A model generated the notes under the pieces. That model worked only from the letters and a program-made list of their open reading frames with translations, searched no databases and was not told the origin of the DNA. From contig JANSYR010000007.1 in NCBI GenBank assembly GCA_024742285.1, forward strand, positions 186,001 to 250,000: DNA of 64,000 nucleotides, given 5' to 3'. This stretch comes from a bacterium (GTDB lineage Bacteria; Myxococcota_A; UBA9160; UBA4427). Positions 7,213-43,148 of this stretch are shown in pieces. Each line of letters starts with the position of its first letter. Position 1 is the first letter of the stretch. Made by a program: the position numbers and the translations under genes.

Positions 7213-8643
7213 TCACTCTTCGATCGAGTAGCCTAGCGCGCGAAGCTGGCGAAGCGACATCTCGTCCAGCTCGATCTCAGGAGCGCCGCCCTCCCAGGCG
7301 GGCGGCAGGGCCAGGTAGTCCTCGGCCGCAGAGCGGAGCCTTTTTAATACATCCGGTTCGTCCGCCGCAATGTTCCGCATTTCTCGGGGGTCTGACTTCA
7401 CGTCATAAAGACGGTCGAAATCGGGGTTGTTCACGTCGTGGATCAGACGTCGGGTGCCTTCGGTGACGGCGACGATCGGGTCGGGGTCTTGCCCCGTCCG
7501 GCCCCACGTCCGGTCGAGGTGCGCGTAGTCGCGAGCCGGGAAATCCGGCGTGTAGTCGCCGAGGATCCAGTTCGCGCGCGACTTGCCGTCCATCTCCGGT
7601 GCGTCCTCGAGCCCGAGCAGCTCGTAGAGGGTCGGAAAGATGTCGACGTTCTCGGTCGGGAGTTCGATGACGAGCCCCGGATCCAGTCGGAACGGGAAGC
7701 CGATGATGAAGGGTGTGTGCGTGACCTCGTTGTGAACGTCCCGCGCGTGACCTTCGAGGCCATGTTCGCCGAAGGCTTCTCCGTGATCGGAAGCCACGAC
7801 GATCAACGTCCGGTCCGCCATGTCGAGTCGGTAGAGCTCCGCGACGATCTCGCCGATCTGCTGATCCTCCCAGAGAATCGAATTGTCGTAGCCATCGGAG
7901 AGCGACGTTCCGAAGATCGCCGTCTCCTCGGTCGAGATGTACTGGTGAACGTCCATCAGGTGGACGTAGAGGAAGAAGCGACGTTCCTGGTTCGTTCGCA
8001 GGAACTCCTTGGCCGAGAACACGGCGTCGATGTCGGTTCCGTCGATTCGGCCCGCGATCGGCTTCCGGCGCATCGCGCTGGGCGCCTGCTTCGGACGAGG
8101 CGCCATGTAGATGTCGAAGCCCTGCCGGAACCCGAAGTTCGGTGCGACCCAACCGTTCCGCCAGATACCCGCCGAGTAGAAGCCGTTGTCGGTGAAGACC
8201 TCCGCCGGCATGCGGGCTTCTTCGTGGACCGCGTCGCGATGGGTCAAGACGTCTGCCCGCTGCGGGTAGAAACCGGTCCAGAGCGAAGCCATCGAAGCCT
8301 TCGTCCAGCTCGACTGCGCGCGGTGCCGGGCGAAGCGGAGACCCGTCCCCGCGATGTAGTCGAGAACGGGTGAGGTCGCCCGCTCGTAGCCGTAGCTGCC
8401 GAGGCGGTCGGCGCGAAGCGTGTCCACGAGGATGAAGAGGACGTTCAGGTCGGAGCGATCAGGGAACGAAGCGGCGTCCTGGAGCGTACCGACCGGGCGA
8501 TCGTCGAAAGAGAGATCCCCTTCGGAAGGTGCGTCGACCTCGCTGCACGCCCAGAGGAACGGTGCGAGACAGACGAGCCCCCACAGACCATGCGGCCGAA
8601 ACCGAACCCACGCCCCTTCGACTGCCCCCAGCTGCGCGCTCAC
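7213..8643 (-). CDS. sulfatase-like lipoprotein of the alkaline phosphatase superfamily
   Basis: The 476-aa product starts at GTG 8643, overlapping the upstream TPR gene stop by 4 bp (GTGA) and preceded by a strong GAGGAG ribosome site. Residues 20-33 look like a lipoprotein signal (FLWAC, Cys33). Metal motifs of the superfamily are present: FILVDTLRADRLGSYGY near residue 70 and SDHGEAFGEHG. At the nucleophile position the sequence is SSWTKASMASLWTG, so Thr114 sits where true sulfatases have the formylglycine Cys of CxPxR, and the Arg is lost. It is therefore unlikely to be a classical sulfatase and is closer to Thr-nucleophile phosphotransferases or phosphodiesterases. Confidence 0.8.
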   Translation of the reverse strand: MSAQLGAVEGAWVRFRPHGLWGLVCLAPFLWACSEVDAPSEGDLSFDDRPVGTLQDAASFPDRSDLNVLFILVDTLRADRLGSYGYERATSPVLDYIAGTGLRFARHRAQSSWTKASMASLWTGFYPQRADVLTHRDAVHEEARMPAEVFTDNGFYSAGIWRNGWVAPNFGFRQGFDIYMAPRPKQAPSAMRRKPIAGRIDGTDIDAVFSAKEFLRTNQERRFFLYVHLMDVHQYISTEETAIFGTSLSDGYDNSILWEDQQIGEIVAELYRLDMADRTLIVVASDHGEAFGEHGLEGHARDVHNEVTHTPFIIGFPFRLDPGLVIELPTENVDIFPTLYELLGLEDAPEMDGKSRANWILGDYTPDFPARDYAHLDRTWGRTGQDPDPIVAVTEGTRRLIHDVNNPDFDRLYDVKSDPREMRNIAADEPDVLKRLRSAAEDYLALPPAWEGGAPEIELDEMSLRQLRALGYSIEE

Positions 8644-29041: not shown

Positions 29042-29548
29042 TCAGTCGAGGTCGTCCGCGTAGTAGTAGACGCCCCATTGCCCGGAGGTCTCGGAGACCG
29101 AGAGCTTCATCTTCTGGATCTGGGTCTTGCCGAAGCGCTCTCCGATCCGCCGGACGAGCTCACGACCGATCCAGGTCGAGAGGTTCTCCGCCGAGGTATT
29201 GTTGATCGGCAGTACGATCACCTCGTCGCTGGGCGCCAGGTAGTGGGCGTCGCGGTAGACGACCTCGGTGTGGCCATCGTCCCGTTCGTCGATCTTGAGC
29301 TCCGGATGCTCCCCGGGCAGCAGCCAGTGCTCGTCGAGGGAGTCGCAGAGCTCGCGGATCACCGGCTTCACGAGGATGAAGTCGATCACGATCCCCTTGT
29401 CGGTCAGCTCCCCCTCGATCTCGGCGTCGACGTGGTAGTTGTGACCGTGGAGTCGTTCCTTCGACCCGTCGGGGAAGATGAGGAAGTGCGCACAGGAGAA
29501 CTTGAAGTACTCCTTGTGCAGATGGATGGCCCAGTTCTCGGTCGGCAT
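29042..29548 (-). CDS. 6-pyruvoyl-tetrahydropterin synthase homologue with the PTPS-III (ExxHGH) signature
   Basis: 168 aa, somewhat longer than QueD. Zinc ligands His21 (FSCAHF) and His34/His36 (RLHGHNYH) are in place, and the C-terminal SVSETSG Glu is kept. In QueD and PTPS-I a catalytic Cys lies three residues before HGH with pattern CxxxHGH; here that position is Lys30 and the next residue is Glu31, giving ExxHGH. From what I recall of the family, this Glu marks PTPS-III enzymes, which release 6-hydroxymethyl-dihydropterin and can replace FolB in folate synthesis. A DHPS-like gene and a pteridine-reductase-like gene diverge from it by 80 bp, which supports a pterin role over queuosine. 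Confidence 0.8.
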   Translation of the reverse strand: MPTENWAIHLHKEYFKFSCAHFLIFPDGSKERLHGHNYHVDAEIEGELTDKGIVIDFILVKPVIRELCDSLDEHWLLPGEHPELKIDERDDGHTEVVYRDAHYLAPSDEVIVLPINNTSAENLSTWIGRELVRRIGERFGKTQIQKMKLSVSETSGQWGVYYYADDLD

Positions 29549-29628
29549 CTCCGGATTATAACGCCCGCCACGCCCACTGACCCTCCGGCGCCTTGACCAG
29601 GCGCGTCTCGAAACGGACAGTCTCGGTC

Positions 29629-30420
29629 ATGCCGCCCGAAGCCGATTCCTACGTCCCGCGCATCCTGGGCGTTCTGAACCTCTCGCCGGAGTCCATGGTC
29701 TCCGAATCGATCGCCGAGGGCGACGAGGCGGTCGCCGAGCGCGCCCGTCGTCTGGCCGGGACCGGCGCCGACTGGATCGATCTCGGCGGGCGCTCGATCA
29801 CGCCGGACGCCCCGATGGTCAGCGACGAGACCGAGCAGGCCCGCCTCCGACCGGCCCTCGCGCTGCTGAAGACCCCCGGAGCCGACCACTTCCGCGAGCG
29901 CGTCTCCGTCGACACATGGAGTCCGGCGACGGCGCGCTTCGCCCTCGAGCACGGTGCCGATGGCGTGAACTACACCGGAGGACCGCTCCCGGGAGAGATG
30001 CTCGAAGCGGTCGCCGCGAAGGGGGCGACCCTCTTCGTGACCTTCATGCCCTACGTCGACGCCTACGCGATGCGCGACGCCCCGCCCGCTCCGGTCGGCC
30101 TCCAGGCCGTGCTCGACCACCTCGGGCCGAAGGTCGAGGCGGCGCGCGCCGCGGGCGTCGAGGAGCTCGTCCTCGACCCGAACCTCGGCATCATCCACCC
30201 GACGACCGACGATCACCAGAAGATCCATCAGCAGCTCGGGATCATCTGGAACCTCGATGTGCTCCGGCCGCTGGGCTGCCCGATCCTCCTCTATGCTGCG
30301 CGCAAACCGGAACGCCTCGCGCGGATCATGACTGCATCCGCGTGCCTCCACGCACGCGCCGACTACATCCGAACGCACACCCCCGAGATGATCTGGCGAC
30401 TCCACGGGGGCTGCGCCTAG
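29629..30420 (+). CDS. dihydropteroate synthase-like protein
   Basis: 263 aa from ATG 29629. The DHPS TIM-barrel path is recognisable: ILGVLNLSPESM (usual N-x-T-P-D-S), GADWIDLGGRSITPDAP (usual D-x-GGEST.PG), VSVDTWSPATARFALEHGAD, VLDPNLGI and a final ADYIRTHTP in place of the usual RVHDV. Several pterin-loop residues differ from canonical FolP, so it may use another aromatic amine or another pterin. It probably joins a hydroxymethyl-dihydropterin to its partner. It forms a likely transcription unit with the following reductase gene (78 bp gap) and is divergent from the PTPS-III-like gene. Confidence 0.8.
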   Translation: MPPEADSYVPRILGVLNLSPESMVSESIAEGDEAVAERARRLAGTGADWIDLGGRSITPDAPMVSDETEQARLRPALALLKTPGADHFRERVSVDTWSPATARFALEHGADGVNYTGGPLPGEMLEAVAAKGATLFVTFMPYVDAYAMRDAPPAPVGLQAVLDHLGPKVEAARAAGVEELVLDPNLGIIHPTTDDHQKIHQQLGIIWNLDVLRPLGCPILLYAARKPERLARIMTASACLHARADYIRTHTPEMIWRLHGGCA

Positions 30421-30498
30421 CACCGGAGTCCCGCTCTCGCTCCGGATGGGCGGACGGACCGACGCCGAGCGTCGAACGTGGGAGGCGACGAACGCGAA

Positions 30499-31248
30499 AT
30501 GACCCAGGAACGCTCGAACGGAACCGATCTCGAAGGACGCGTCGCGCTCGTGACGGGCGCCGCCCTGCGATCCGGGCGCGCCCTCGCGATCGCCTTCGCC
30601 GACGCCGGCGCGGACGTGATCGTGCACTACCACCGGAGCCGCGACGCGGCCCTCGAGGTCGTCGACGAGATCGAGGCGCGTGGCCGGCGCGGGTTCGCCG
30701 TGTCGTTCGACCTCGCCGACCCGGAGGACGTTGCCTCGGCCATCGCCGAAGCCGTGGAAAGCGCCGGCGGTCTCGACATCCTCGTGAACAACGTCGGTTC
30801 GATCGTCTGGAAGCGTCTCGACGAGCTGACCGCCGAAGACTGGAAGACGTGCCTCGAGGGAACCCTGCTGGCGACGCTCCATGCGAGCCAGGCCGCGCTC
30901 CCCGCTCTGCGCGCGAGCGGGCGTGGACGGATCATCAACATCCTCGACGCCGACGCGGACGCAACGGACCCGGTCCCCTACGCCACCGCCTACAAGATCG
31001 GCAAGCGCGGCAGCTTCACGCTGACCAAGACGATGGCCGTGATGGAAGCGGAGCACGGCGTGACCGTGAACGCCGTCTCGCCCGGGACCCTCGAGGACTC
31101 GGTCGAGAAGCCCGCGCTCGACAGGATTCCGGCGGGCCGATACGGAACCTACGACGACGTCGCGAACGCCGTGCTCCACCTGGCGAGCGACGCCGCCGCC
31201 TACGTGACCGGTACACAGGTCAAGGTCTCCGGCGGCTACCTGATCTAG
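30499..31248 (+). CDS. short-chain reductase of the pteridine reductase (PTR1/FolM) type
   Basis: 249 aa from ATG 30499, with GGGAGG at 30480-30485 as ribosome site. It is an SDR with cofactor motif VTGAALRSGRALA, the TGxxxRxG form typical of PTR1/FolM, and VIVHYHRSRDAA, where HYHRS matches the NADPH-selecting segment of PTR1. The catalytic set is Asp152, Tyr165 and Lys169: Asp replaces the usual SDR serine 13 residues before Tyr, exactly as in PTR1. It should reduce a dihydropterin or dihydrofolate-like substrate with NADPH. Position behind the DHPS-like gene fits the last step of a pterin pathway. Confidence 0.85.
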   Translation: MTQERSNGTDLEGRVALVTGAALRSGRALAIAFADAGADVIVHYHRSRDAALEVVDEIEARGRRGFAVSFDLADPEDVASAIAEAVESAGGLDILVNNVGSIVWKRLDELTAEDWKTCLEGTLLATLHASQAALPALRASGRGRIINILDADADATDPVPYATAYKIGKRGSFTLTKTMAVMEAEHGVTVNAVSPGTLEDSVEKPALDRIPAGRYGTYDDVANAVLHLASDAAAYVTGTQVKVSGGYLI

Positions 31249-31274: not shown

Positions 31275-31330
31275 ACTACGCCGCTCGGACCACGCCTCGC
31301 GGACTACACCTCTCGGACTAGACCTCTTGA
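31275..31330. repeat. four degenerate 14-bp tandem units
   Basis: Units 31275-31288, 31289-31302, 31303-31316 and 31317-31330 each fit a loose ACTACNCCTCTCGG consensus. The last unit covers the stop codon of the iorB-like gene. They fill the gap between two converging genes; they may have arisen by slippage. Confidence 0.5.
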
Positions 31331-33522
31331 ACAAAGGGCAGCTGCGACACCGCCTGCCCGGTCAGCCGACGCCAGGCGTTCGCCACGGCCGGACCGATCG
31401 GCGGCACGCCGGGCTCCCCGACCCCGGTCGGGTCTTCCGTCGACCGGATGATCGCGACCTCGACCTCGGGCATGTCGTCGATCCGCAGGTTCTTGTAGCG
31501 ATCGAAGTTGCTCTCGCGAACGAGACCTCCTTCGTCGAGATGGATCTCGCTGTAGAGCGTGGCCCCGAGGCCGAACCCGATCCCGCCTTCCATCTGGGCC
31601 CGGATCACGTTCGGATTGACCGGCACGCCGCAATCGACCGCGCACCACACGCGCCGCACCTTCGGCCGATCGACCGGCTGACGCGCGCGCTCGACCTCGA
31701 CGATCTGTGCGACGAAGCTCCCGAAGGACTCGTGGACCGCGACCCCGAACGCCGTGCCCTCTTCGGGCCGTCGACCCCAGCCCGCGATCTCCGCCGCCCG
31801 TTCGAGCACGCCGCGGTGCCGCGGCTTGTCGCCGAGAAGCGCGAGCCGCCCCTCGACCGCGTCCTGTCCGACGGCCTCGAGGAGCTGGTCGATGAAGGCC
31901 TCGACCGCGAATCCCGTGTGGGTGTGACCGACCGAACGCCACCAGAGCGTCGGCACGCCGGTCGGCATCAGGTGCTGCGTGACGCGCAGGTTCGACGTCG
32001 CGTAGGCGAGGTTGTCCGCGCCCTCGACGATCGTCCGATCGATCCCCGACGTCTTCCCCGGGCGAAAGGGTTGCGCCGCGATCGTCTGGTCCCAACCGAC
32101 GAGACGACCCGCGCGATCCATCGCGCCGCGCACGCGGTGGGCCACGATCGGTCGGTAGTAGCCGCCGCGTACGTCGTCCTCGCGGGTCCACTGGAGCTTC
32201 GTCGGGCGGCGATCCGCGGGCCCACCGGGCTGTGCCTTGAAGACGGAGCCCAGCTCGTGGATGAAGTGCGCGTCCCAGGTGGATCGACGACCGAAGCTCC
32301 CACCCGCCATCTCGATGTCGAAGCGTACGTCCTCTTTCGGGAGACCCATCTCCGCCGCGAGATGCGGATGCTCACGACCGGGCCCCTGGGAGGCGAGCGT
32401 CGCCAGCACGCCCTTCGGATTCTCCGGGTCGATCTCCAGGATCCCGTCGAGCGGCTCCATCATCGCGTGCGCCAGGAACGGAAAGGTGAACTCGGCCTCC
32501 GAGTAGACGACGTCGTCGCCGGCGGCCGCCGCGGCCAGCGTCGCGTCGACGTCGCCCGCCTCGACCGCGACCTCCCCCGCTCGCCTCGTCGCCTCGAGGA
32601 ATGTCGCCTTGATCTCGGCGCTCGACCGGGTCTCGGCCTCGGAGAAGTCCCACTCGACCGAGAGCGCGCGACGGCCCTGGATCGCCGTCCACGTCTCGCT
32701 CGCGTAGACCGCGACGCCGGCGGGCACCTCCTCGACCGCAACGACCCCGGGCACCTCGAGGGCCTTCGTCGCATCGAAGGACGCGACCTTCGCGCCGAAG
32801 GCCGGCGGTCGCTCGATCATCACGACGAGCATGTCGTCCTTGTAGACGTCGATCGTGAAGCGCGCCTGTCCGGTGCTCTTCGCGAGGGTGTCGATCCGCG
32901 GAAGCTCCTTCCCGATCAGGACGAAGTCCCTCGGGTCCTTGAGCACGGGCGTTTCGGGAACCGGTCGCTTCGACGCGGCCTCGGCGAGTGCCCCGAAGCC
33001 ACTCTCGCGACCGCTCGTCGCGTGGCGTACGCGGCCGTCGGAGACGGTGATCTCCGACGTCGGGACGCCCCAGGTCTCGGCCGCGGCTTCGACGAGCATC
33101 TGCCGCGCGGTGGCCCCGGCCTGGCGCATCTGCATGTAGGCGTTCCGGATCGCCGTGGAGCCGCCGGTTCCCTGAACGCCTCCGAAGAGCAGGTTCCCGA
33201 AGCGCGCATCGTCCGCGGGCGCCGCTTCCGCGCGCATCTGCGCCCAGTCCGCGTCCAGCTCCTCGGCGACGAGGGTCGCGAGGCCCGTGTACGGCCCCTG
33301 CCCCATCTCCATGTGCTTCGAGACGAGCGTGACCGTGTCGTCGCCGGCGATCCGCACGAAGGCGTTCGGCTCGAAGACGAGACCCGGATCGACGTTCGCG
33401 TTCACGATCGCGGGCGAGGGCGCTTCGTCGTTCGCGCAGGCGCCGAGACCGATTCCGAGGACGAGGGCGCCGCTGCCCTTGAGGAAGCTTCGACGGGAGA
33501 GGTCGGAGATCGTCTCGCTCAC
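31318..33522 (-). CDS. iorB: isoquinoline 1-oxidoreductase-type molybdoenzyme, large subunit
   Basis: 734 aa from GTG 33522, overlapping the small-subunit stop as GTGA. The N-terminus is a Tat signal with lipobox features ([21 protein letters not shown]). The body is of the xanthine dehydrogenase family large subunit, IorB branch: [42 protein letters not shown], and near the end [17 protein letters not shown] with the conserved catalytic Glu. It holds molybdopterin and hydroxylates or oxidises N-heterocycles, aldehydes or similar in the periplasm together with the 2Fe-2S subunit. The real substrate is open; no heterocycle pathway is nearby. Confidence 0.9.
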
Positions 33523-33980
33523 GAGGTCGCCCCCTTCGAGTCGGCCGCGTCGCGGACCGCCTGCCTGATCCGCGCATAACAGTTGCAGCGGCACAGGTTC
33601 CCGGCCATCGCGTTCTCGATCTCCTCGTCCGAAGGAGCGGGCTTCGCCTCGAGCAGCGCCACCGCCGACATCACCTGACCGGACTGGCAGTAGCCGCACT
33701 GCGGCACGTCGAGGGCGACCCAGGCGTCCTGCACGGCTTTCGCACTCGCGCCTTCGACCCCTTCGATCGTACGCACGTCGGCGCCCTCGACCGAGGCGAC
33801 CGGCGTGACGCAGGCGCGCTGGGCGCGGCCGTTCACGTGGACGGTGCAGGCGCCGCACTGCGCGATTCCGCAGCCGAACTTGGTGCCCGTCAGGCGGAGG
33901 CGGTCCCGCAGGACCCAGAGCAGCGGCATGTCCGCCGGGACGTCGAGCTCGTGCTCTCGACCGTTGACGCGAAGCTTCAT
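33519..33980 (-). CDS. iorA: (2Fe-2S)-binding small subunit of the IorAB-type molybdoenzyme
   Basis: 153 aa. Two [2Fe-2S] domains are plain: the plant-type one with [18 protein letters not shown] and a Cys after the next strand, and the helical one with [10 protein letters not shown] and [14 protein letters not shown]. The latter has Cys where most homologues have Gly-Thr (CRCGTY), a small oddity. It passes electrons from the molybdenum site to an acceptor. It lies upstream of and coupled to the large-subunit gene; no signal peptide of its own is present, so it likely travels with the Tat-exported partner. Confidence 0.93.
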
Positions 33981-34045
33981 CGGTTGGGCCCTCGGCGCGT
34001 GGGAGACGCGCGTTGGAGGTCATGGGAGGTTCGAGCGGAGGTGCG

Positions 34046-34120
34046 TGGTCGGGGTGGTGGGATTTGAACCCACGACGCTGAACCCCCAAAGTTCAGGCTC
34101 TACCACTGAGCTACACCCCG
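34046..34120 (-). tRNA. tRNA-Pro (anticodon TGG), CCA encoded
   Basis: Read on the minus strand: acceptor CGGGGTG pairs with CACCCCG, D arm GCTC/GAGC, anticodon stem TGAAC/GTTCA with loop TTTGGGG (anticodon TGG at loop positions 34-36), T arm GTGGG-TTCAAAT-CCCAC, discriminator A and encoded CCA. All stems are perfect. A TAGTAT lies 11 bp upstream (34132-34137) as a possible -10 box. Confidence 0.95.
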
Positions 34121-34391
34121 ACGCGCCGGCGATACTACCCGATCGGGACGGCGATCCGGGGAGCGTGCCCCGGCTGCTCGCGCGGCGCGGCGCCGGAGAC
34201 GTCGCCCCCCGGGCGCCCGACGTGACCCGGACGCGCCCACGTGGGAAGGGCGGCCTCGTCGATTCGTCGCCGGAGTCGGGCTTACGGCCGGAAGGCCGCT
34301 CGAGGCCGACCCCTGCCTCGGTTCCCCCGGTGCAGGAATCTCCACACACGAGGGCGTCAAGTCGCGCTCGACACCGGCCGAACCACGCTTC

Positions 34392-36692
34392 ATGGACGCG
34401 CACGAGCGAAGCCAGGAGGGCGAGCCCGCATCGGCGCACGGCGACGTCACCCACTTGCGCGTGCTCCACGTCGAAGACGACCCGGTCGACGCGGAAGTCA
34501 TCGCTCGCTGCCTTCGGCGACCGAGCGAAGAGCGATTCGTGGTCGAACGGGTCGAGACGCTCGCCGAGGCGCGCGACCGACTCGCCGAGGACGCGTTCGA
34601 CCTCGTCGTGCTGGACCTGTCTCTACCCGACAGCTTCGGGGAGAGCACGCTCGACGCGATCCTCGCGACCGGAACCGACGCCGCCGTCGTCGTGATGACG
34701 GGCTTCGACGATGCCGAGCTGGGTCTCGATCTGATCGTGCGCGGGGCCGAGGACTTTCTCTCGAAATCGGATCTCGTCGTCGAGCACGTCCCGACCTGCT
34801 TCCGCTTCGCGGTGGCTCGGCACCGCGGTCGCGCCGCGGTGGAGCGCGCTCGGCGCGATGCCGAGGACGCGTCCGAAGCCAAGAGTCGCTTCGTCGCCTC
34901 CATGAGTCACGAGATCCGGACGCCACTCAACGCGATCATCGGCATGGCCGACCTCCTCGCCGACGCGGACCTCGCACCCGACCACCGGCAGTACGTCGAG
35001 ATCTTCCGGCGCTCCGGACGCAACCTCCTCTTCCTTCTGAACAACGTTCTCGAGCTCTCGTCGGTCGAGTCCGGCCAATTCGAGCTTCACGAAGCCCCCT
35101 TCGCGCCCGCCGAGATCGCGCGAGCGGCGGTCGAGACCTTTGCCTACGCGGCGCACAAGAAGTGCGTGAACATCGCGATCGATCAGAGGGCGCCTTCCCA
35201 CCTCATCGTCTCGGGGGATGCCGACCGCATCCGGCAGGTACTCGTCAACCTGGTCGGGAACGCCGTCAAGTTCACGGACCACGGACACATCCTGACGAGC
35301 GTGGACTACGTCGAGCACGGCGACGGAGAGGGCGAGCTGATCTACCAGGTCGAGGATACGGGCCCCGGCGTACCGGAGGATGCCCTGGAGTCGGTCTTCC
35401 GATCCTACGTCCGAGCGGAGCACGGCGCCGAGATCAAGGCGGGGACCGGCCTCGGTCTCGCACTCTGCTCGGAACTCGTTCACCTGATGGGCGGTCGGAT
35501 CTCCTTGTCGTCGGTCCGCGGCGAGGGCGCACGCTTCCGCGTCACCCTGCCGGTCCCGAAGCTTCCGTCGTCGCCCTCCGGCGTGCGCCGGATCGATGGA
35601 CGAAGGGTCGTCGTGGCGGCCCCGGCGACCGTGGAACGCGGCGTGCTGGTGCGCAGCCTCGCGGACCGCGGCGCCGCCGTGTCCACGGTGAGCTCGATCG
35701 GGGAATGGCCCGATTCCCCGGACCAGGAGTCGATCGACGCCCTCGTCGTCGATTGCCGCATGGAAGGCGGGGGGCTCTCGCTCGCGGAGCAGGTCGCAGG
35801 GTCTCTCGAGGCGAAGATCGTCGTCTTGCTGCCTCTCGACCACCGACGCGCCGACGTCTCGCGCTGCCGCGCGTTCGGGGCGACCGCTCTGCTGCGCCCG
35901 GCGGACGTCGATGACATCTGTCACGCGCTGAACGGCGAGGAACCGGACGAGCCGGTCGTGGGCCTGCCGGACGAGGCGACCGCTCAGCCGCCGATGCGCG
36001 TCCTCCTGGCAGAGGATTCACCGGAGAACCGCACGCTGATCGAGGCCTATCTCGCCGGGGACACGTTCGAGATCGTCGTCGCGGAGAACGGAATCGAGGC
36101 GGTGACCGCCGCGTGCCCGGGCGTGTTCGACGTGATCCTGATGGACATGAACATGCCCGAGATGGATGGCCTCGAGGCGACGCGCGCCATCCGCGCCTTC
36201 GAGAACGAACGAGGGTTGACGCGGACGCCGATCCTCGCGCTGACCGCCTACGCGTTCGCGGAGCAGGCCGAGGCCTGCCTCGAGGCCGGGTGCGACGCGC
36301 ACCTCTCGAAGCCCATCACCAAGCGGGAGCTCCTCGACGCCCTCGCGATCCGGGGGCGACGCGCCCTCACGGTCGCGGACGATCACGACATGGCCGACCT
36401 CGCCGACGACTACCTCGCCCAGCGACTCGTCGACGTCTCCGAGATTCGCACCGCGCTCGCGGCGGGCGACCTCGCGACGATCGACGTGCGCGGACACAAC
36501 ATGAAGGGGACCGGCGTGGGCTACGGATTCCCGATGGTGAGTGCGCTCGGTGAAGCGATCGAAGCGGCGGCGAGGGCGGAGGATCGCGCGGCGATCGAAC
36601 CGCTGACGAATCAGCTCGAGGCGTTCGTCGCGCGCGCGCTGCCGACGGAAGACGAAGCGGTCAAGACCGAGGGCACCGGCCCGCCGCCTTGA
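34392..36692 (+). CDS. hybrid sensor histidine kinase REC-HisKA-HATPase-pseudoREC-REC-Hpt
   Basis: 766 aa, soluble (no membrane segment). Domains: REC 1 at 22-140 (phosphoacceptor Asp75, LDLSLPD), HisKA with [10 protein letters not shown] (His173), HATPase (N box around [10 protein letters not shown], then EDTGPGVP and GTGLGLAL) to about 390, a degenerate receiver at 403-512 ([10 protein letters not shown]), a full receiver at 535-655 (Asp585, [11 protein letters not shown]) and a C-terminal Hpt domain with His702 (RGHNMKGTG). With no sensor domain of its own, REC1 is the likely input: another kinase or a cognate partner phosphorylates it. It opens the signalling island, with a hairpin before the next gene. 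Confidence 0.9.
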
Positions 36693-36740
36693 GCGCGCGG
36701 GCCCTCGGGGCGCGACCAGTTTCCTGGATCGCGTGCGCCC

Positions 36741-36766
36741 GCGGTTCGGCGCAGGCGCCGAACCGC
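36741..36766 (+). terminator. perfect hairpin between the hybrid kinase and the REC/GGDEF-like gene
   Basis: Stem GCGGTTCGGCG / CGCCGAACCGC (11 bp, loop CAGG), 48 bp after the kinase stop, followed at once by CGAAGG-A-CCTTCG. There is no T-run, so it may act as an attenuator, a 3'-end stabiliser or a Rho-linked end. Confidence 0.5.
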
Positions 36767-36810
36767 CGAAGGACCTTCGAAGGGCCGAATCGCCCGCGGA
36801 GAACCGCCGA

Positions 36811-37731
36811 ATGAGATCCGCCCCCCCTGCCCTCGACGAGACCTCCTTCCAGGCACCGCTTCGCGTCCTCCTCGTCGAGGACGATCCCGAGTACGTCCGG
36901 ATCGTCGAACGCGCCCTCGCGCCGGCGGGCCGGACCGTCGAGGTCGACCACGTCGAGACCCTCGGTGCGGCCCTTCTCGAGCAGGACCGGGACCCCCGTG
37001 ACGTGGTGCTGCTCGACCTCGCGCTGCCCGATTCCGATCCCGCGACGACGACGCGATCCGCCGGACGCCGCCTGGTCCGCTCGGCACCGGTGTTCGTGCT
37101 GACGGGCCGCGACGTTCGAGACGGCGCACTCCGGGCGCTCCAGGCCGGCGTCGAGGACTACTTCGTGAAGGACCAGCTCGACCCCGACACGCTCTCCGCG
37201 GTCCTGCGCCTCGCCGTACTCAGGCGGGCGGCCCGAACCTCCCACGACCGCGGACGACGCCTCGACGCCGCCGCGTTCCGGGACGCCTTGCGGAATCGGA
37301 TCGCTTCACGCGTCGACGGCGAATCGCTGCGCATCAACGTCGTGGAGCTCGACGGCTTCTCGACTTCGCGAGAAGCGCGGGGCGAAGCCTGGGCGCAGCG
37401 CATCATGCGCGAGGCAGGCGACGCACTCGTCTCGGCCGTCTCGAAGGACGGGATCGTCGGGGAGCTCGGAGAAGGCGTCTTCGCCGTCGTCGACGGAGAT
37501 CGGGAGATCACGGCCCCCTTCGCCGACGGTGCGCTCGAGGAAGCGATGGCGCTCTCGCCGGAGGTGTCGCGCGGCGAGCAGCGGGACCTGACGGCCACCT
37601 GCGGCCACGTGTGCGTCCCGGAGCACGGAGCGCACCCGTCGTCGCTGCTCGCAGCGGCGCTGGAGCGAGCCCGAAAAGCGGCTCGCCCGCCGAGCGTTCG
37701 CCGCGGCTCGCCGACCGGGTCCCGAGCCTAG
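36811..37731 (+). CDS. response regulator with a degenerate GGDEF-like domain
   Basis: 306 aa from ATG 36811. A receiver domain fills residues 17-135 (LLVEDDPEY, VLLDLALPDSD, FVLTGRD, and KDQLD as the Lys end). The second half aligns with GGDEF fold landmarks (AAFRDALRNRI, INVVELDGF, AGDALVSAV), but the signature loop reads GELGEGVFAVV instead of RxGGDEFxxL, so cyclase activity is unlikely; nucleotide sensing or pure protein contact is possible. Its stop overlaps the converging ETR-like kinase stop. It probably receives phosphate from the hybrid kinase just upstream. Confidence 0.8.
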   Translation: MRSAPPALDETSFQAPLRVLLVEDDPEYVRIVERALAPAGRTVEVDHVETLGAALLEQDRDPRDVVLLDLALPDSDPATTTRSAGRRLVRSAPVFVLTGRDVRDGALRALQAGVEDYFVKDQLDPDTLSAVLRLAVLRRAARTSHDRGRRLDAAAFRDALRNRIASRVDGESLRINVVELDGFSTSREARGEAWAQRIMREAGDALVSAVSKDGIVGELGEGVFAVVDGDREITAPFADGALEEAMALSPEVSRGEQRDLTATCGHVCVPEHGAHPSSLLAAALERARKAARPPSVRRGSPTGSRA

Positions 37732-39284
37732 GACGGAACGGTGAAGGTGAACGTCGTCCCATGACCGCGCCTCGACTCCAGGTAGATCCGACCGCCGTTG
37801 CGTTCGACGATCTTCTTCACGATCGCGAGGCCGAGCCCGCTCGCGTCTTCGCCGGAGCGGGCGGCGAGTGTCTGGAAGATGAGGAAGACGCGCTCGTGGT
37901 GTTCCGGAGCGATGCCGACCCCGTCGTCCGCGACACGAAACTCCACGTGGTCGCGCACGCGATCTGCCGACACACGGACGGTCCCGCTGTCCGCGCCCAT
38001 GTGGCGGATGGCGTTGGAGATCAGGTTCTGGAAGATCTGGTGGAGCTGGACACGCGGATACGAGACCTCCGTGAGCTCTCCGACCTCGATGGCGATCGAG
38101 GGCGGCGCGTCGATCGACTCGATGACTTCGTGGACGAGCGCGGAGACGTCGAGGCGCTCGGCCTCGACCGGATGAGTCGCCGCGCGCGAGTAGTCGAGGA
38201 CCCCGTCGATCATGTTGTGCATTCGCCCGACGCGCTCCGTCAGCATCGCCAGCTGCTCGCGACCCTCCGCGTCCAGGCGGTCGCGCTGATCCTCCGCGAG
38301 AAACTGGGAGAGCGAGGCGATCCCCCGCATCGGCGACTTGAGATCGTGGGACACGACGTACGCGAACTGCTCCAGCTCGCGATTCGATCGCTCGAGTTCC
38401 TCCGCGCGACGCGCCAACTCGGCGGTCCGGTCGTCGACGCGCTTGGACAGCTCCTCGTTGAGATCGCGAAGGCGATTCTGGACGTCGATCCGATCGCTGA
38501 TGTCCCGAATCGCGGCCGTGACGACCATTCCGGCGTGCGTATCGAGGGGACTCAGGCTGATCTCGACCGGGAACTCGGTCCCGTCGCTTCGCAGACCGAA
38601 GAGCTCCCGCCCGGCGCCCATGGGCTTGGGAGCGGCGTTCGCCATGTATCCGTTGCGCTGCAGAACGTGGGCCTCGCGGGCGGCCTCGGGCACCAGCATC
38701 TCGATCGCCTGGCCGATGAGGGCCTCGCGCGCGTAGCCGAAGAGACTCTCGCAACGCGCGTTGACGAGCTCGATGGAACCGCCTGCGTCGACGATCACCA
38801 TCGCGTCGGGCGCCGCTTCGAGCAAGGAACGGAAGCGCTCCTCCGCGAGCCGCCGCTCGTCGATCTGCGTACGAAGCGCATCGTTCGCGGTCGAGAGCTC
38901 CGCTGGATTCGGGATCGCGAGGATGCGCGGGATCATCGGCCACAACGCCGATGCGGTGAGCACCGACACCACCGCCGTCGCCCCCTTCACGACCCCTTCC
39001 GCGCGATAGATCGGATCCCACATCGTCCAGATTCCGAGCACGTGGGTCAGGCCGCAGAGAAAGATGAACGCGGCGAAGAGAGTCAGGACGTGGGAGTAGT
39101 TGAGGTCCGTACGTCGCCGATAGAGGACCACGAGCGCGACCGGAATCGAGAAATAGGAGAGCGCGACGACCGCGTCCGAGATCACGTGGAGCCACAGGAT
39201 GTCGGGCTTCCACATGAAGCAGTGCCCGTGCGGCATGAAGCTCGACTCGAAGAGGTTCGCGAAGAAGTCGATGACTGCGGACAT
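37728..39284 (-). CDS. PAS histidine kinase with an ethylene-receptor-like membrane domain
   Basis: 518 aa. Three hydrophobic helices lie in residues 25-120. The first reads LHVISDAVVALSYFSIPVAL and the second FAAFIFLCGLTHVLGIW; this closely parallels plant ETR1, where the Asp in helix 1 and the Cys-x3-His in helix 2 serve copper and ethylene binding (here Asp37, Cys77, His81). A PAS domain follows (150-265), a coiled coil (270-305), then HisKA with SHDLKSPM (His313) and a complete HATPase (NLISNAIRHM, DDGVGI, GLGLAIVKKI). It is downstream of a REC gene and an OmpR-type regulator on the same strand, its likely partners. The ligand is inferred, not shown. Confidence 0.85.
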   Translation of the reverse strand: MSAVIDFFANLFESSFMPHGHCFMWKPDILWLHVISDAVVALSYFSIPVALVVLYRRRTDLNYSHVLTLFAAFIFLCGLTHVLGIWTMWDPIYRAEGVVKGATAVVSVLTASALWPMIPRILAIPNPAELSTANDALRTQIDERRLAEERFRSLLEAAPDAMVIVDAGGSIELVNARCESLFGYAREALIGQAIEMLVPEAAREAHVLQRNGYMANAAPKPMGAGRELFGLRSDGTEFPVEISLSPLDTHAGMVVTAAIRDISDRIDVQNRLRDLNEELSKRVDDRTAELARRAEELERSNRELEQFAYVVSHDLKSPMRGIASLSQFLAEDQRDRLDAEGREQLAMLTERVGRMHNMIDGVLDYSRAATHPVEAERLDVSALVHEVIESIDAPPSIAIEVGELTEVSYPRVQLHQIFQNLISNAIRHMGADSGTVRVSADRVRDHVEFRVADDGVGIAPEHHERVFLIFQTLAARSGEDASGLGLAIVKKIVERNGGRIYLESRRGHGTTFTFTVPS

Positions 39285-39354
39285 GGCATCCCCCGAGCGT
39301 CAAGTTGGGTCGATGTGCCGGGGGGGAGGTCGAGCGATCCGGATCCGTCGGAGC

Positions 39355-39786
39355 TCACGTGATTCCGTCGAGGAGGTCGGCGAGGAACGCCTCGCACTCC
39401 TTGACGCCGAACGGCTTCCGCAGGAATCCGAAAGCGTGCTGCGGTGTGGAGATGGGTAGCGCCGACATCATGGCGAAGCGAGCGGCGGGCTGCAGAAATC
39501 GACAGGATCCGAGCAACGAGTAACCCGACTCCGAGTCGGCGAGCATGAAATCCGCGAGCACCGCGTAGTAGTCGGCGGAGGCCAGCGCCGATCTGCCCTC
39601 CTCCGCGTCACGTGCCCAATCGAGGACGACGTCCGGATCGAGCTGGTGCAGCGCCCGAGCGATGAGTGGGATCACCATCGGATCGTCCTCGATCACGAGC
39701 ATCCGCGGCGAGCGGAGGCGGGGCTGGACGACGACGGTCTTCGGGGGCGGTCGAAGGTCTTCGAGAGGTCGGGGGGACAAGGACAT
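39355..39786 (-). CDS. stand-alone receiver protein
   Basis: 143 aa from ATG 39786. After a Pro-rich lead of 27 residues comes one receiver domain: MLVIEDDPMV, phosphoacceptor in VLADFMLAD, MSALP in place of the usual T/S loop, and FLRKPFGVKE with the conserved Lys-Pro. No output domain. It is flanked on the same strand by the ETR-like kinase (70 bp downstream) and the OmpR-type regulator (96 bp upstream), so it may take phosphate from that kinase or act as a phosphate sink. It resembles the lone receiver at 41909-42373 in length and in the DWA...VLAD and LL.KPF segments. Confidence 0.85.
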   Translation of the reverse strand: MSLSPRPLEDLRPPPKTVVVQPRLRSPRMLVIEDDPMVIPLIARALHQLDPDVVLDWARDAEEGRSALASADYYAVLADFMLADSESGYSLLGSCRFLQPAARFAMMSALPISTPQHAFGFLRKPFGVKECEAFLADLLDGIT

Positions 39787-39882
39787 GCGGAGAACTCCTG
39801 AGTGGTCGTTTCCACACTGATCGGTGTCACTCGATCGCGTCCCCGTCCACGTTCGATCCAGTTGTCTGGACGCGAGACGCGC

Positions 39883-40578
39883 TCACCCGGACGCGGGCTT
39901 CGCCAGCCGATACCCCACGCCGCGAACGGACTCGAGGAGACCGCCCAGGGGCGCGAGTTTCGCGCGCAGGTTGCTCATGTGCGTGTCCACGGTCCGCGCG
40001 GAGATGGTGACGCCGGCCCACGCGAACTCGATCAGGCCTTCGCGCGAGACCGGCTCTCCGCGCCGAGAAGCGAGGCAGTGGAGGAGGCGGAACTCGTGCG
40101 GTGTGAGGTCGCAGGCCCACTCGCGATCCTCGGCTCGAATCACGACCTCGAGCTGCAGCGGGTCGAGCCTCAGATCGCTGAAGTGGAGTTGCCGATTCTC
40201 GCGATTCGCGTGCCGCAAGCGCGCCTCGATCCGCGCGCGCAGCTCCGTGCCGTCGAAGGGCTTCTGCACGTAGTCGTCGGCGCCCAGCTTGAACGCCTTC
40301 ACCTTGTCGTGCGCGTCACCGCGCCCGCTCAGGAAGATCAAGGGCACGCTCTCCAACGCCTGATGGCTCCGGATTCGGGCGCATACGTCGAATCCATCCT
40401 CGTCCGGAAGCCCCACGTCGAGCAGGATCAGGTCCGGTACATGGGACACCACCTGGCGAACGCCGTCGGCGCCCGTGTCCGCGACGGACAGGTCGAAATC
40501 CGAACGGAGGCACCGACGGATCAGGTCCTGGGCTTCGGGAGAGTCCTCGATGATCTGGATTCGAAACACGATCGACAC
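39883..40578 (-). CDS. OmpR/PhoB-type response regulator (REC-winged helix)
   Basis: 231 aa from GTG 40578, with GGAGAAGG as ribosome site. Receiver: IQIIEDSPEAQ, LILLDVGLPDEDG, IFLSGRGD, GADDYVQKPFD. DNA-binding winged helix: LTPHEFRLLHCLASRRGEPV, TVDTHMSNLRAKL and SVRGVGYRLAKP. All catalytic receiver residues are present, so it should be a phosphorylation-controlled transcription factor. It leads the minus-strand set regulator, lone receiver, ETR-like kinase, and is the only clear DNA-binding output in the island. It diverges from the REC-PAS gene by 131 bp. Confidence 0.92.
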   Translation of the reverse strand: MSIVFRIQIIEDSPEAQDLIRRCLRSDFDLSVADTGADGVRQVVSHVPDLILLDVGLPDEDGFDVCARIRSHQALESVPLIFLSGRGDAHDKVKAFKLGADDYVQKPFDGTELRARIEARLRHANRENRQLHFSDLRLDPLQLEVVIRAEDREWACDLTPHEFRLLHCLASRRGEPVSREGLIEFAWAGVTISARTVDTHMSNLRAKLAPLGGLLESVRGVGYRLAKPASG

Positions 40579-40709
40579 CTCGCCTTCTCCGCGTTCCCAC
40601 CTGAACGGAATCGACCGCACGTCCAGCGGACTTTTGTCCGGATATCTGGTCACAGCCAGCAGCGGCGTTGCCGATGAGACATTCGGGTGTTTCATGGAGC
40701 GTTCGAAAG

Positions 40710-41732
40710 GTGAACCGTCCGATTCGTATTCTCGTCGTCGAAGACGATCCGGTTGACGCGATGACCCTCGAGCGGGCCGTCCGCCGGCGCGCCCTCGACG
40801 TGGAGCTCGATCTGGTCGAGTCCGCCGAGGCGGCGCTGGACCGACTCCGCTGCGGACAAGAGACCGGTTCACCGAACGCAGAGCGGCCGCAGCTCATCCT
40901 CGCCGACCTCCGCTTGCCGCGTCTCTCCGGGCTGGACCTGCTCGAACGCGTGAAAGCGGACGAAGCCGTTCGCCGGATCCCCTTCGTCCTCCTCTCGACG
41001 TCGATCCAGGACCTGGACGTCGCGGCGGCCTACGCGCTCGGCGCGGCGGGGTATTTCTCGAAGTCCGTCGACTTCGACGACTTCGCGGATACGGTCGCTG
41101 CCATCGTGGCGTTCGTCGGGCGCGCCGTCCTGCTCTCGCCCCAGGCCAACGTGCCCTGGTCCAGCTCACTGCCGGGCCGTTCGACTTCCCACTATCTGGA
41201 GGGCGAGCTCGTGGCCCTGATCCGGGAGGATCCGAGGACCTTCGACTTCATCCAGAACGGCGCGACCGACGGCTTGTGGTACTGGGACCTCGAACAGCCC
41301 GAGAACGAATGGATGAGCTCGGGATTCTGGACGACTTTCGGCTTCGACCCGGCCACGAAGCCGCATCTCACGGCGGCATGGCAGGAGCTGATCGACGCCA
41401 CGGACCTCGAGGTCTCACGCGCCAACTTCGAGAAGCACTGCGAGGACCCCGCGCATCCCTACGACCAGGTCATCCGCTGCCGCCATCGGGACGGACACAC
41501 GGTCTGGGTCCATTGCCACGGCATCGCGATCCGGGACCGCGAGGGGAAGCCGGTCCGCATGCTGGGTGCGCACCGCGACGTGACGGCGAGGGAAGTGGCC
41601 CGGCGGCGCGCCGAAGATGCCGAGGCCCGGCTTCGGGCGATCGCATCGGTGCTCGACGAGACGGACGAGACGCAGGCGAGCCCGCGCGATGCGCGACTTC
41701 GCGCGATTCTGGCGGCTGGCCCCGCAGACTGA
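40710..41732 (+). CDS. receiver-PAS protein without an output domain
   Basis: 340 aa from GTG 40710. The receiver spans residues 4-130 ([42 protein letters not shown]). A PAS/PAC domain follows (GLWYWDLEQPENEWMSSGFW, then VIRCRHRDGHTVWVHCHGIA, MLGAHRDVTARE) and a short coiled coil ends the protein. There is no histidine kinase, GGDEF or DNA-binding part, so it is likely an adaptor joining a phosphorylation signal with a small-molecule or redox cue. A hairpin follows the stop. Confidence 0.85.
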   Translation: MNRPIRILVVEDDPVDAMTLERAVRRRALDVELDLVESAEAALDRLRCGQETGSPNAERPQLILADLRLPRLSGLDLLERVKADEAVRRIPFVLLSTSIQDLDVAAAYALGAAGYFSKSVDFDDFADTVAAIVAFVGRAVLLSPQANVPWSSSLPGRSTSHYLEGELVALIREDPRTFDFIQNGATDGLWYWDLEQPENEWMSSGFWTTFGFDPATKPHLTAAWQELIDATDLEVSRANFEKHCEDPAHPYDQVIRCRHRDGHTVWVHCHGIAIRDREGKPVRMLGAHRDVTAREVARRRAEDAEARLRAIASVLDETDETQASPRDARLRAILAAGPAD

Positions 41733-41738
41733 GCGCGT

Positions 41739-41760
41739 CCGCCGCGCGCAGACGCGGCGG
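41739..41760 (+). terminator. hairpin after the REC-PAS gene
   Basis: 8-bp perfect stem CCGCCGCG / CGCGGCGG with loop CGCAGA, 6 bp after the stop codon. No T-run. Confidence 0.45.
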
Positions 41761-41770
41761 CGAGCGATTC

Positions 41771-41890
41771 GCGATTCCGGAATCGCCAGGATTCCGGATC
41801 GAATCTCGACGTTGCCAGCGCGCCGACCGCCCGAAACACCGAGCATCCAATGGGCCTTCGACCCCAGGGAGGGGGGGAATCGAAGGGCCA
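41771..41890. promoter_or_regulatory. palindrome and inverted repeat ahead of a lone receiver gene
   Basis: GCGATTCCGGAATCGC (41771-41786) is a perfect 16-bp palindrome. TGGGCCTTCGA (41851-41861) and TCGAAGGGCCA (41880-41890) form an 11-bp inverted repeat with one mismatch, ending 18 bp before the GTG at 41909. Either could be a regulator site, the second also an mRNA hairpin covering the start region. Confidence 0.4.
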
Positions 41891-41908
41891 CTCCTGCGAG
41901 GAAGCCCC

Positions 41909-42373
41909 GTGAGAACGTCCCTCTACCCGTCCTACCCTCCCTATCCGCCCTGCCCGCCGCGTCGACTCCTGATCGTCGAAGACGACCAGGAGCTGCACAC
42001 CGTGCTCGCACGCTCTGCGCAGCGCCAGTGCCCGGACCTCGAGGTCGACTGGGCCTGCGACCTGGATACCGCGCGTCGCCTGCTCACGCATCATCGATAC
42101 GACGCCGTGCTGGCGGACTACCGCCTGGGACCGAACGAGCGAGGAACCGAGATCCAGCGCTGGTGCCGGACGCGTCACCTCGCGCCACGCATCGCGATCA
42201 TGTCGTCGACACCGCTCGCCGAGCTGATGGAGTGCGTGCCCGACGCATCGACGCAGCTGCTGCCCAAGCCGTTCACGACGCGCGAGTTCGGCGACTTCGT
42301 CGCATCGCTTCTCGACACCGCGCGCAGATCCGTACGATCCCGTCGCCCGCCGGCAGATCGGTGCCCCGGGTAG
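41909..42373 (+). CDS. stand-alone receiver protein
   Basis: 154 aa from GTG 41909 with GAGGAAG upstream. After a Tyr/Pro-rich opening ([16 protein letters not shown]) comes one receiver: [30 protein letters not shown] and [10 protein letters not shown]. It has no output domain. It looks paralogous to the lone receiver at 39355-39786 (shared DWA-x-D, AVLAD, MS..P, KPF and terminal LLD positions), suggesting duplication inside this island. The gene is preceded by inverted repeats and is probably transcribed on its own. Confidence 0.85.
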
Positions 42374-42467
42374 CCCATCGGACGCGTCGAACGCGGTCGC
42401 CCGATCTCGGGGCGTCGTTCGGCGCGCGACGCGGGGCGCCCGAACCGGCAGAGCGATTCGTCTCGCG

Positions 42468-43148
42468 CTAGGCGCTCGGGCCCGCGGGCGCGAAGGGTCC
42501 GTTCGCCAGCCACTGCAACAGATCCCGCAGCGCGTGCTGGTTGATCTCGTGGCCCATCGGATACTCGCCCCAGGCGGCCTGGATCCCGAGGTTCTTGAGC
42601 TTCTCGAGGGACTCGCGGCCGTTGTCGATCGCGACCATCGGATCCTCGGTCCCGTGGATGAGGAGCGTCGCGAGCTTCGCCCGGGCGTCGTCGTCCTGGA
42701 GCCCCTGGAGGATCAGATTCGGCAGCCAGGTCGAGAGCGCGACCAGCGCGCTGAATCGGTCGGGGCGCCCGAGCGCCAGGTCGTAGGCCATGACGCCGCC
42801 CTGGCTGAAGCCCATCACGACGAAGCGGTTCGGATCGATCGGATACTGCTGGAGCGCGTCCTCGACGAAGCCCTCCAGGATTCCGCGTGCCCCGACCAGC
42901 GCGGGCGCGTCGATCTCTCCGCCGGAAGAGAGCGGGAACCACGCGTAGGCGCGCTGGCCGGGCTGGGGCTCGAGCACGATCGGCCCCTGCGGACACAGGA
43001 ACATCACCTCGTCCCCCGGCACGACCTGCGAGACCAGGGGCGCGATTCCGAGCAGATCGTGCGCGCTCGCCCCGAAGCCGTGGAGCGCCAGGATGGTCGG
43101 GAAGGGGCCCGACCCAGCGGGGATGTGCGCGGTGTGCATCAGCTCCAT
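42468..43148 (-). CDS. alpha/beta hydrolase, carboxylesterase/phospholipase type
   Basis: 226 aa from ATG 43148, matching the 210-230 aa of the family. Catalytic motifs are complete: oxyanion segment [14 protein letters not shown], nucleophile elbow GFSQGG, Asp in [10 protein letters not shown] and His in YPMGHEIN. It is likely a cytoplasmic esterase or lysophospholipase with wide substrate range. It is divergent from leuC by 174 bp, and a 16-bp palindrome lies 23 bp upstream of its start. Confidence 0.9.

Follow-up and report, generated by a model that had tools for sequence, protein, structure and literature searches.

A predicted PTPS-III gene beside a non-canonical DHPS-like gene and a FolM/PTR1-type reductase gene: a probable FolB bypass and a putative second pterin unit in a Myxococcota-type genome

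We analysed a 64,000-nucleotide stretch of contig JANSYR010000007.1 from a Myxococcota_A bacterium (assembly GCA_024742285.1, positions 186,001 to 250,000 of the forward strand; hereafter the window), in which three pterin-related genes lie side by side at 29042-31248. They encode a homologue of 6-pyruvoyltetrahydropterin synthase (PTPS), a protein resembling dihydropteroate synthase (DHPS), and a short-chain dehydrogenase/reductase (SDR). The initial annotation had described these genes as a pterin cassette, and both the open reading frames and the Pfam matches bear out the arrangement. We propose that the locus comprises two units: a PTPS of type III that would take the place of FolB in folate synthesis, and a DHPS-like/SDR pair that would make a pterin compound without para-aminobenzoate (pABA). 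Taken as a whole, this explanation has in our estimate an even chance of being correct. The genome from which the window comes is denoted G000; other G and L numbers designate compared genomes and loci. The features of the locus are as follows.

29042-29548, minus strand: predicted PTPS-III gene, 168 amino acids (Pfam PTPS, PF01242, 1.4e-22)
29549-29628, no strand assigned: 80-bp divergent region between the PTPS and DHPS-like genes, with a CTTGACC element also present in L056-L059
29629-30420, plus strand: DHPS-like gene, 263 amino acids (Pterin_bind, PF00809, 1.4e-26)
30499-31248, plus strand: SDR gene of FolM/PTR1 type, 249 amino acids (adh_short_C2, 5.6e-41)

The divergent region may serve as a promoter. 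The listed open reading frame of the DHPS-like gene runs from a TTG at 29593 (275 amino acids), and the ATG at 29629 is preferred because homologues start near there. An alternative start of the SDR gene is the GTG at 30478 (256 amino acids); its residues are numbered here from the ATG at 30499.

The window PTPS (PDGSKERLHGHNY) contains the motif PDGSKERLHGH, and no cysteine occupies either the CxxxHGH or the CxxxxxHGH position. The KERLHGH segment thus agrees with the initial annotation, which had noted ExxHGH in place of the cysteine of QueD, and ERLHGH is identical in 11 of 11 relatives checked. The nearest solved relative is the Plasmodium PTPS (PDB 2a0s, 3.6e-25, 91.9 bits), and the cysteine in the FSCAHF of the window protein is also found in this best-matching enzyme. 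ExxHGH is the signature of PTPS-III, which belongs to folate synthesis (PMC5041015). The window gene is the only PTPS family member in its genome, and a FolB search of that genome gave no match. Among genomes of the same family tested for both, PTPS without FolB was found in three and FolB without PTPS in eight. FolB is also absent from eight further PTPS carriers, of which two belong to the same genus and six were reached via loci; this brings the total to the window's genome and 10 other genomes that carry a window-type PTPS and lack FolB. Outside the window's family the exclusion is not strict, as several genomes of family f3 have FolB plus a divergent PTPS. Because FolB is missing, the PTPS is single, and the two exclude each other across the sampled family genomes, the assignment of the window protein as a PTPS-III that replaces FolB is well supported, and the enzyme is predicted to form 6-hydroxymethyl-7,8-dihydropterin. 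Such a bypass is known biology rather than a new finding. The protein shares with PTPS-III (the COG0720 subfamily that includes the Plasmodium PTPS) the ExxHGH motif, the lack of the catalytic cysteine and a presence where FolB is missing, and its sole notable difference is the pairing with a DHPS-like gene. The exchange of FolB and PTPS-III within one bacterial family thus offers a clean natural example of this bypass.

Two further observations concern the PTPS family. With its single PTPS-family gene, G000 has no QueD of this family, and queuosine would be salvaged, made by way of PTPS-III, or not made. In family f13, a QueD-like PTPS gene lies directly before an ExxHGH PTPS gene (L046:7532-7903 and 7798-8409; L047:7318-7689 and 7698-8198), forming a tandem of two adjacent COG0720 paralogues; CGRLHGH was observed in L046.

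Textbooks assign a single role to DHPS, the target of the sulfonamides. We aligned 18 DHPS-like proteins and 13 FolP controls on E. coli FolP (282 amino acids, checked against PDB 1aj0), whose residue numbers are used here. N22, D56, D96, N115, D185, K221, R255 and H257, which we take to hold the pterin and the phosphates, are retained in all 18 DHPS-like proteins. All 18 also carry Met for F28, Ile for T62, Thr for R63, Ile for F190 and Ala for S219; S222 is absent from them, as are about 12-13 residues following K221. Of the five pABA contacts F28, T62, P64, F190 and S222, P64 alone is retained (17 of 18 proteins), the other four being altered or absent throughout. F28, T/S62 and F190 are retained in 13 of 13 FolP controls, including the FolP of the window's own genome. 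The S. aureus enzyme packs its counterparts of F28, P64 and F190 against the pABA ring, and its counterpart of T62 bonds the pABA amine and the pyrophosphate (PMC6057106). In Sul2, for which loops 1 and 2 and an SN1 carbocation mechanism have been described, the pABA carboxylate contacts Ser214 beside Lys213 (PMC10328974); these two residues probably correspond to S222 and K221 of the E. coli enzyme. The joint and invariant change of four of the five contacts to the ring, amine and carboxylate distinguishes the DHPS-like clade.

The initial annotation had stressed an altered DHPS scaffold, with NLSPES and with THTP in place of RVHD. NLSPES and RTHTP are both present in the DHPS-like protein, but THTP is not the telling change because R255 and H257 are both retained and RTH also occurs in the true FolP of G000. 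The telling changes are those of the pABA pocket. On the simplest interpretation, the DHPS-like protein would still form the pterin cation but accept a partner other than pABA.

Profile scores, phylogeny and structure also set this protein apart from FolP. Pterin_bind regions occur three times in G000: in a 1323-codon frame that is presumably MetH, in a 272-amino-acid FolP on contig C9, and in the window DHPS-like protein. With the DHPS equivalog TIGR01496 (cut-off 162.6), the window protein scores 106.9 and three homologues 90-116, all below the cut-off; the FolP on C9 clears it with 229.8 bits, and the DHPS-like gene as the sole folP was rejected on that basis. FolA and HPPK (FolK) are encoded elsewhere in the genome. 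Thus, of the two canonical genes whose presence elsewhere in G000 was in question, folP was found and folB was not. None of the Sul1-4 models scored above its cut-off for the DHPS-like protein (65.4 bits against 575 for Sul2). In the tetrahydromethanopterin (H4MPT) step represented by TIGR00284, a DHPS homologue takes an acceptor other than pABA. This model does not match the window protein and matches one homologue weakly, at 26.4 bits, and an H4MPT-type DHPS was rejected. A tree separates the 18 DHPS-like proteins from the 13 FolP by a branch with 100/100 support, in a topology containing long branches that the tool flags. The AlphaFold model of the DHPS-like protein (pLDDT 90.5, pTM 0.90) finds its best PDB match in Sul2 (7s2j, TM 0.80). 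The protein therefore has in common with FolP (TIGR01496, including Sul1-3) the TIM barrel and the eight residues of the pterin and anion sites, and differs from it by H140F/Y and D116F/Y in addition to the substitutions and the deletion given above, by its score below the cut-off and by its separate clade. The initial proposal of a non-canonical protein that could yield a non-folate pterin is supported, short of proof, by pABA contacts lost without exception, by the separate true FolP of G000, and by a neighbourhood conserved in three groups of bacteria.

The true FolP of G000 (L044:8106-8921, minus strand, corresponding to C9 near 230162-230887) is of the Sul1-3 type, with 276 bits to the Sul2 model and 230 to the DHPS model, a PASSNPDA loop and a DPGMGFFLG motif. 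Similar-looking FolP proteins occur in G022 and G066 of the same family, and intrinsic insensitivity to sulfonamides is predicted for all three genomes.

The SDR of the window contains D152, Y165, K169, HYHRS and the motif TGx3RxG, in the form TGAALRSG. TGx3RxG, and an Asp-rich DxDxD before the Tyr and Lys, were found in 16 of 16 SDR members checked, and TGX3RXG is a mark of PTR1/FolM (PMC1971073). The best NCBIfam model is the TmpR dihydropteridine/dihydrofolate reductase, which outscores the other models by 55 bits and reaches 216.1 bits against a cut-off of 325; the pteridine reductase model gives 139.3 bits against 288. The SDR thus resembles FolM, PTR1 and TmpR in its TGx3RxG motif, in the catalytic Asp replacing Ser and in its best model, and departs from them in falling under both cut-offs and in having FabG as its nearest PDB sequences. 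The initial assignment as a PTR1-type enzyme consequently holds for residues and motifs and not for family scores. A pterin is the likely substrate. The SDR as a substitute for a missing FolA in G000 was rejected, as FolA is present.

The same data raise the possibility of a drug-tolerant second folate branch, in which the DHPS-like protein would use pABA and the SDR would be a FolM/TmpR-type reductase, the pair acting as a backup when FolP or FolA is inhibited. This would agree with Sul2 as the best structural match, with TmpR as the best SDR model, and with the lack of a FolA match in the pair-bearing cyanobacterial genomes G182 and G185. However, three cyanobacterial genomes without the pair likewise show no FolA match, the genomes with the pair already encode FolP and mostly FolA, and the Sul-type FolP of G000, G022 and G066 retains the Phe, Ser/Thr and SRKS contacts that 18 of 18 DHPS-like proteins lack. 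A second folate branch would also leave unaccounted for the linkage to a HAD phosphatase and a GT81 glycosyltransferase described below, and we regard it as unlikely.

We scanned one genome per species, 84,980 species in all, with two peptide patterns that divergent members may escape, and found 23 loci with a DHPS-like gene. The hosts are Myxococcota- or Deltaproteobacteria-labelled and similar metagenome-assembled genomes (MAGs), 11 Synechococcus/Cyanobium-type records, a Methylococcus MAG and a Gammaproteobacteria MAG; the named strain Synechococcus sp. CS-1328 has the DHPS-like/SDR pair. In every one of the 10 Myxococcota-type genomes whose DHPS-like gene is longer than a stub, PTPS adjoins it (the window, L056, L057, L058, L059, L060, L066, L040, L073 and L122, the last truncated where its contig ends; L072 is the record L040, and L119 apparently duplicates the genome of L060). 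An SDR gene comes next in the window, L056, L059 and L073, and is broken in L058. In 13 of 13 cyanobacterial and gammaproteobacterial loci (11 cyanobacterial, plus L071 and L074), the SDR gene lies directly 3' and a GT81-like glycosyltransferase gene directly 5' of the DHPS-like gene. A HAD-IIB phosphatase gene precedes the GT81 gene in L061, L068-L071 and L074-L076. The cyanobacterial run of HAD phosphatase, GT81, DHPS-like and SDR genes has 1-4-base overlaps or short gaps, its order is identical in L071 and L074, and folB and/or folK stand directly upstream of it in several cyanobacterial loci. Several of the cyanobacterial loci are closely related and hence are not independent counts. In L073 a glycosyltransferase gene stands beside the PTPS, DHPS-like and SDR genes; GT81 is nonetheless single-copy and order-wide.

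The glycosyltransferase and the phosphatase resemble GpgS and GpgP, whose genes are likewise adjacent in the glucosylglycerate pair. Since the DHPS-like/SDR pair follows these gpgP- and gpgS-like genes, it might belong to glucosylglycerate metabolism, with the pterin enzymes supplying a cofactor, but we find this highly improbable. The glycosyltransferase scores 272-352 against a cut-off of 700, the phosphatase is also below the curated equivalog cut-offs, and the same run holds the DHPS-like and SDR genes and often folB-folK. The two gene sets are usually apart in Myxococcota-type genomes. Moreover, gpgS and gpgP are reported to be absent from freshwater picocyanobacteria isolates (PMC9361551), which argues against the pair being simply osmolyte genes.

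The DHPS-like protein of the window is 54-58% identical to its cyanobacterial and gammaproteobacterial homologues. A wide presence in Cyanobacteria was rejected: the distribution is patchy, with a match (E <= 1e-40) in 1 of 292 sampled cyanobacterial genomes, the centre genome itself. In the window's phylum, 5 of 141 genomes match at E <= 1e-20, two of them with FolP-like proteins. Spread by plasmids was also rejected, as a cyanobacterial DHPS-like protein has no match among 72,556 plasmid records. Rarity together with this degree of identity would fit horizontal transfer followed by frequent loss.

Losses can be followed at one syntenic site. The SDR gene is lost in L057 and L060; in the congener G099 both the DHPS-like and SDR genes are gone between the PTPS gene, which is retained, and the downstream esterase gene; and G085 and G181 keep only the C-terminal 82 residues of the DHPS-like protein. 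PTPS is retained at this site unless FolB exists. Because this pattern separates PTPS from the pair, the locus consists of two units, an essential PTPS and an accessory DHPS-like/SDR pair. The earlier idea of a trio acting as a unit stands as far as the neighbourhood recurs. It fails in that PTPS occurs alone in G099, that the pair occurs without an adjacent PTPS where FolB exists, and that at least four Myxococcota-type genomes lack an intact SDR gene beside the DHPS-like gene; one inseparable cassette was rejected on G099 and on the cyanobacterial pairs without adjacent PTPS. The 82-residue stubs (L041:12770-13015; L077:5536-5781) are 87% identical and lie beside the same esterase gene; G085 and G181 both encode FolB, and neither has PTPS next to the stub.

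The stepwise losses at this site (L057, L060, G099, G085 and G181), together with the SDR stub of L066 elsewhere, might indicate that only the PTPS-III function is conserved and that the pair is decaying or unrelated, for example a pterin-binding regulator and a fatty-acid-type reductase. Such a passenger role is in our view as improbable as a second folate branch. Comparison of the window with two related loci gave dN/dS values of 0.04-0.11 for PTPS, 0.11-0.12 for the DHPS-like gene and 0.18-0.19 for the SDR gene; with values of 0.04-0.19, all three genes are under purifying selection in the window's lineage. The pterin-site residues are invariant across the three groups of bacteria, and in Cyanobacteria and Gammaproteobacteria the DHPS-like and SDR genes form tight runs to which PTPS is not adjacent.

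We thus favor the two-unit explanation. In unit 1, PTPS-III would convert the product of GTP cyclohydrolase to 6-hydroxymethyl-7,8-dihydropterin in place of FolB, and HPPK would activate it to the diphosphate (DHPP), from which the true FolP and FolA would make folate in the ordinary way. For unit 2, we infer from gene content and site residues that the DHPS-like protein would bind DHPP and expel pyrophosphate, generating a pterin cation by the SN1 chemistry of DHPS, that an acceptor other than ordinary pABA would attack this cation, and that the FolM/PTR1-type SDR would reduce the resulting dihydropterin to its tetrahydro form. The HAD phosphatase and GT81 of the picocyanobacterial and gammaproteobacterial runs may make or decorate the acceptor, and the product could then bear a sugar. 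More tentatively, and with the odds rather against it, the pair (with GT81 and the HAD phosphatase in some hosts) might make an undescribed tetrahydropterin conjugate, folate-like without pABA and possibly sugar-bearing, that is shared horizontally among aquatic Myxococcota-type bacteria, freshwater picocyanobacteria and Gammaproteobacteria. A literature search, with subscription papers mostly outside its reach, returned no description of the pair or the trio. A clade with an invariant pterin site that gives up the pABA contacts and is tied to an SDR and a glycosyltransferase points to a pterin product of which we found no description, in hosts that are unrelated aquatic bacteria with freshwater phototrophs among them.

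Several observations weigh against this explanation. Sul enzymes have an altered loop 2 and still use pABA, so that loop changes alone are insufficient to establish a new acceptor. None of the DHPS-like or SDR proteins has a known activity. With a profile of ten SDR members, the top match among solved structures is FabG; L057, L060 and L040 have no adjacent SDR gene, and L066 has a 30-residue stub of it. Finally, GT81 is present in 22 of 24 genomes searched across the order, whether or not the pair is present, so that a strict partnership in Myxococcota-type genomes is not supported, and the GT81 gene of G000 is on another contig with no such HAD phosphatase gene beside it. This GpgS-like GT81 gene lies at L137:7353-8588 (G000:C13:126352), and nearly all searched genomes of the order have one copy of it.

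According to Pfam, the neighbours examined upstream of the three genes encode a DUF1207 protein, an acyl-CoA thioesterase-like protein, a NuoEF-like protein, a MobA-like transferase and an aldehyde ferredoxin oxidoreductase, and those downstream of the SDR gene a molybdopterin hydroxylase pair, with no folate genes among them. The downstream pair belongs to a segment of about 11 kb (31318-42470) between the SDR gene and an esterase gene (42468-43148), which also encodes response-regulator-like proteins and others. The corresponding gap between the SDR and esterase genes is a few hundred bases in L056 and L058.
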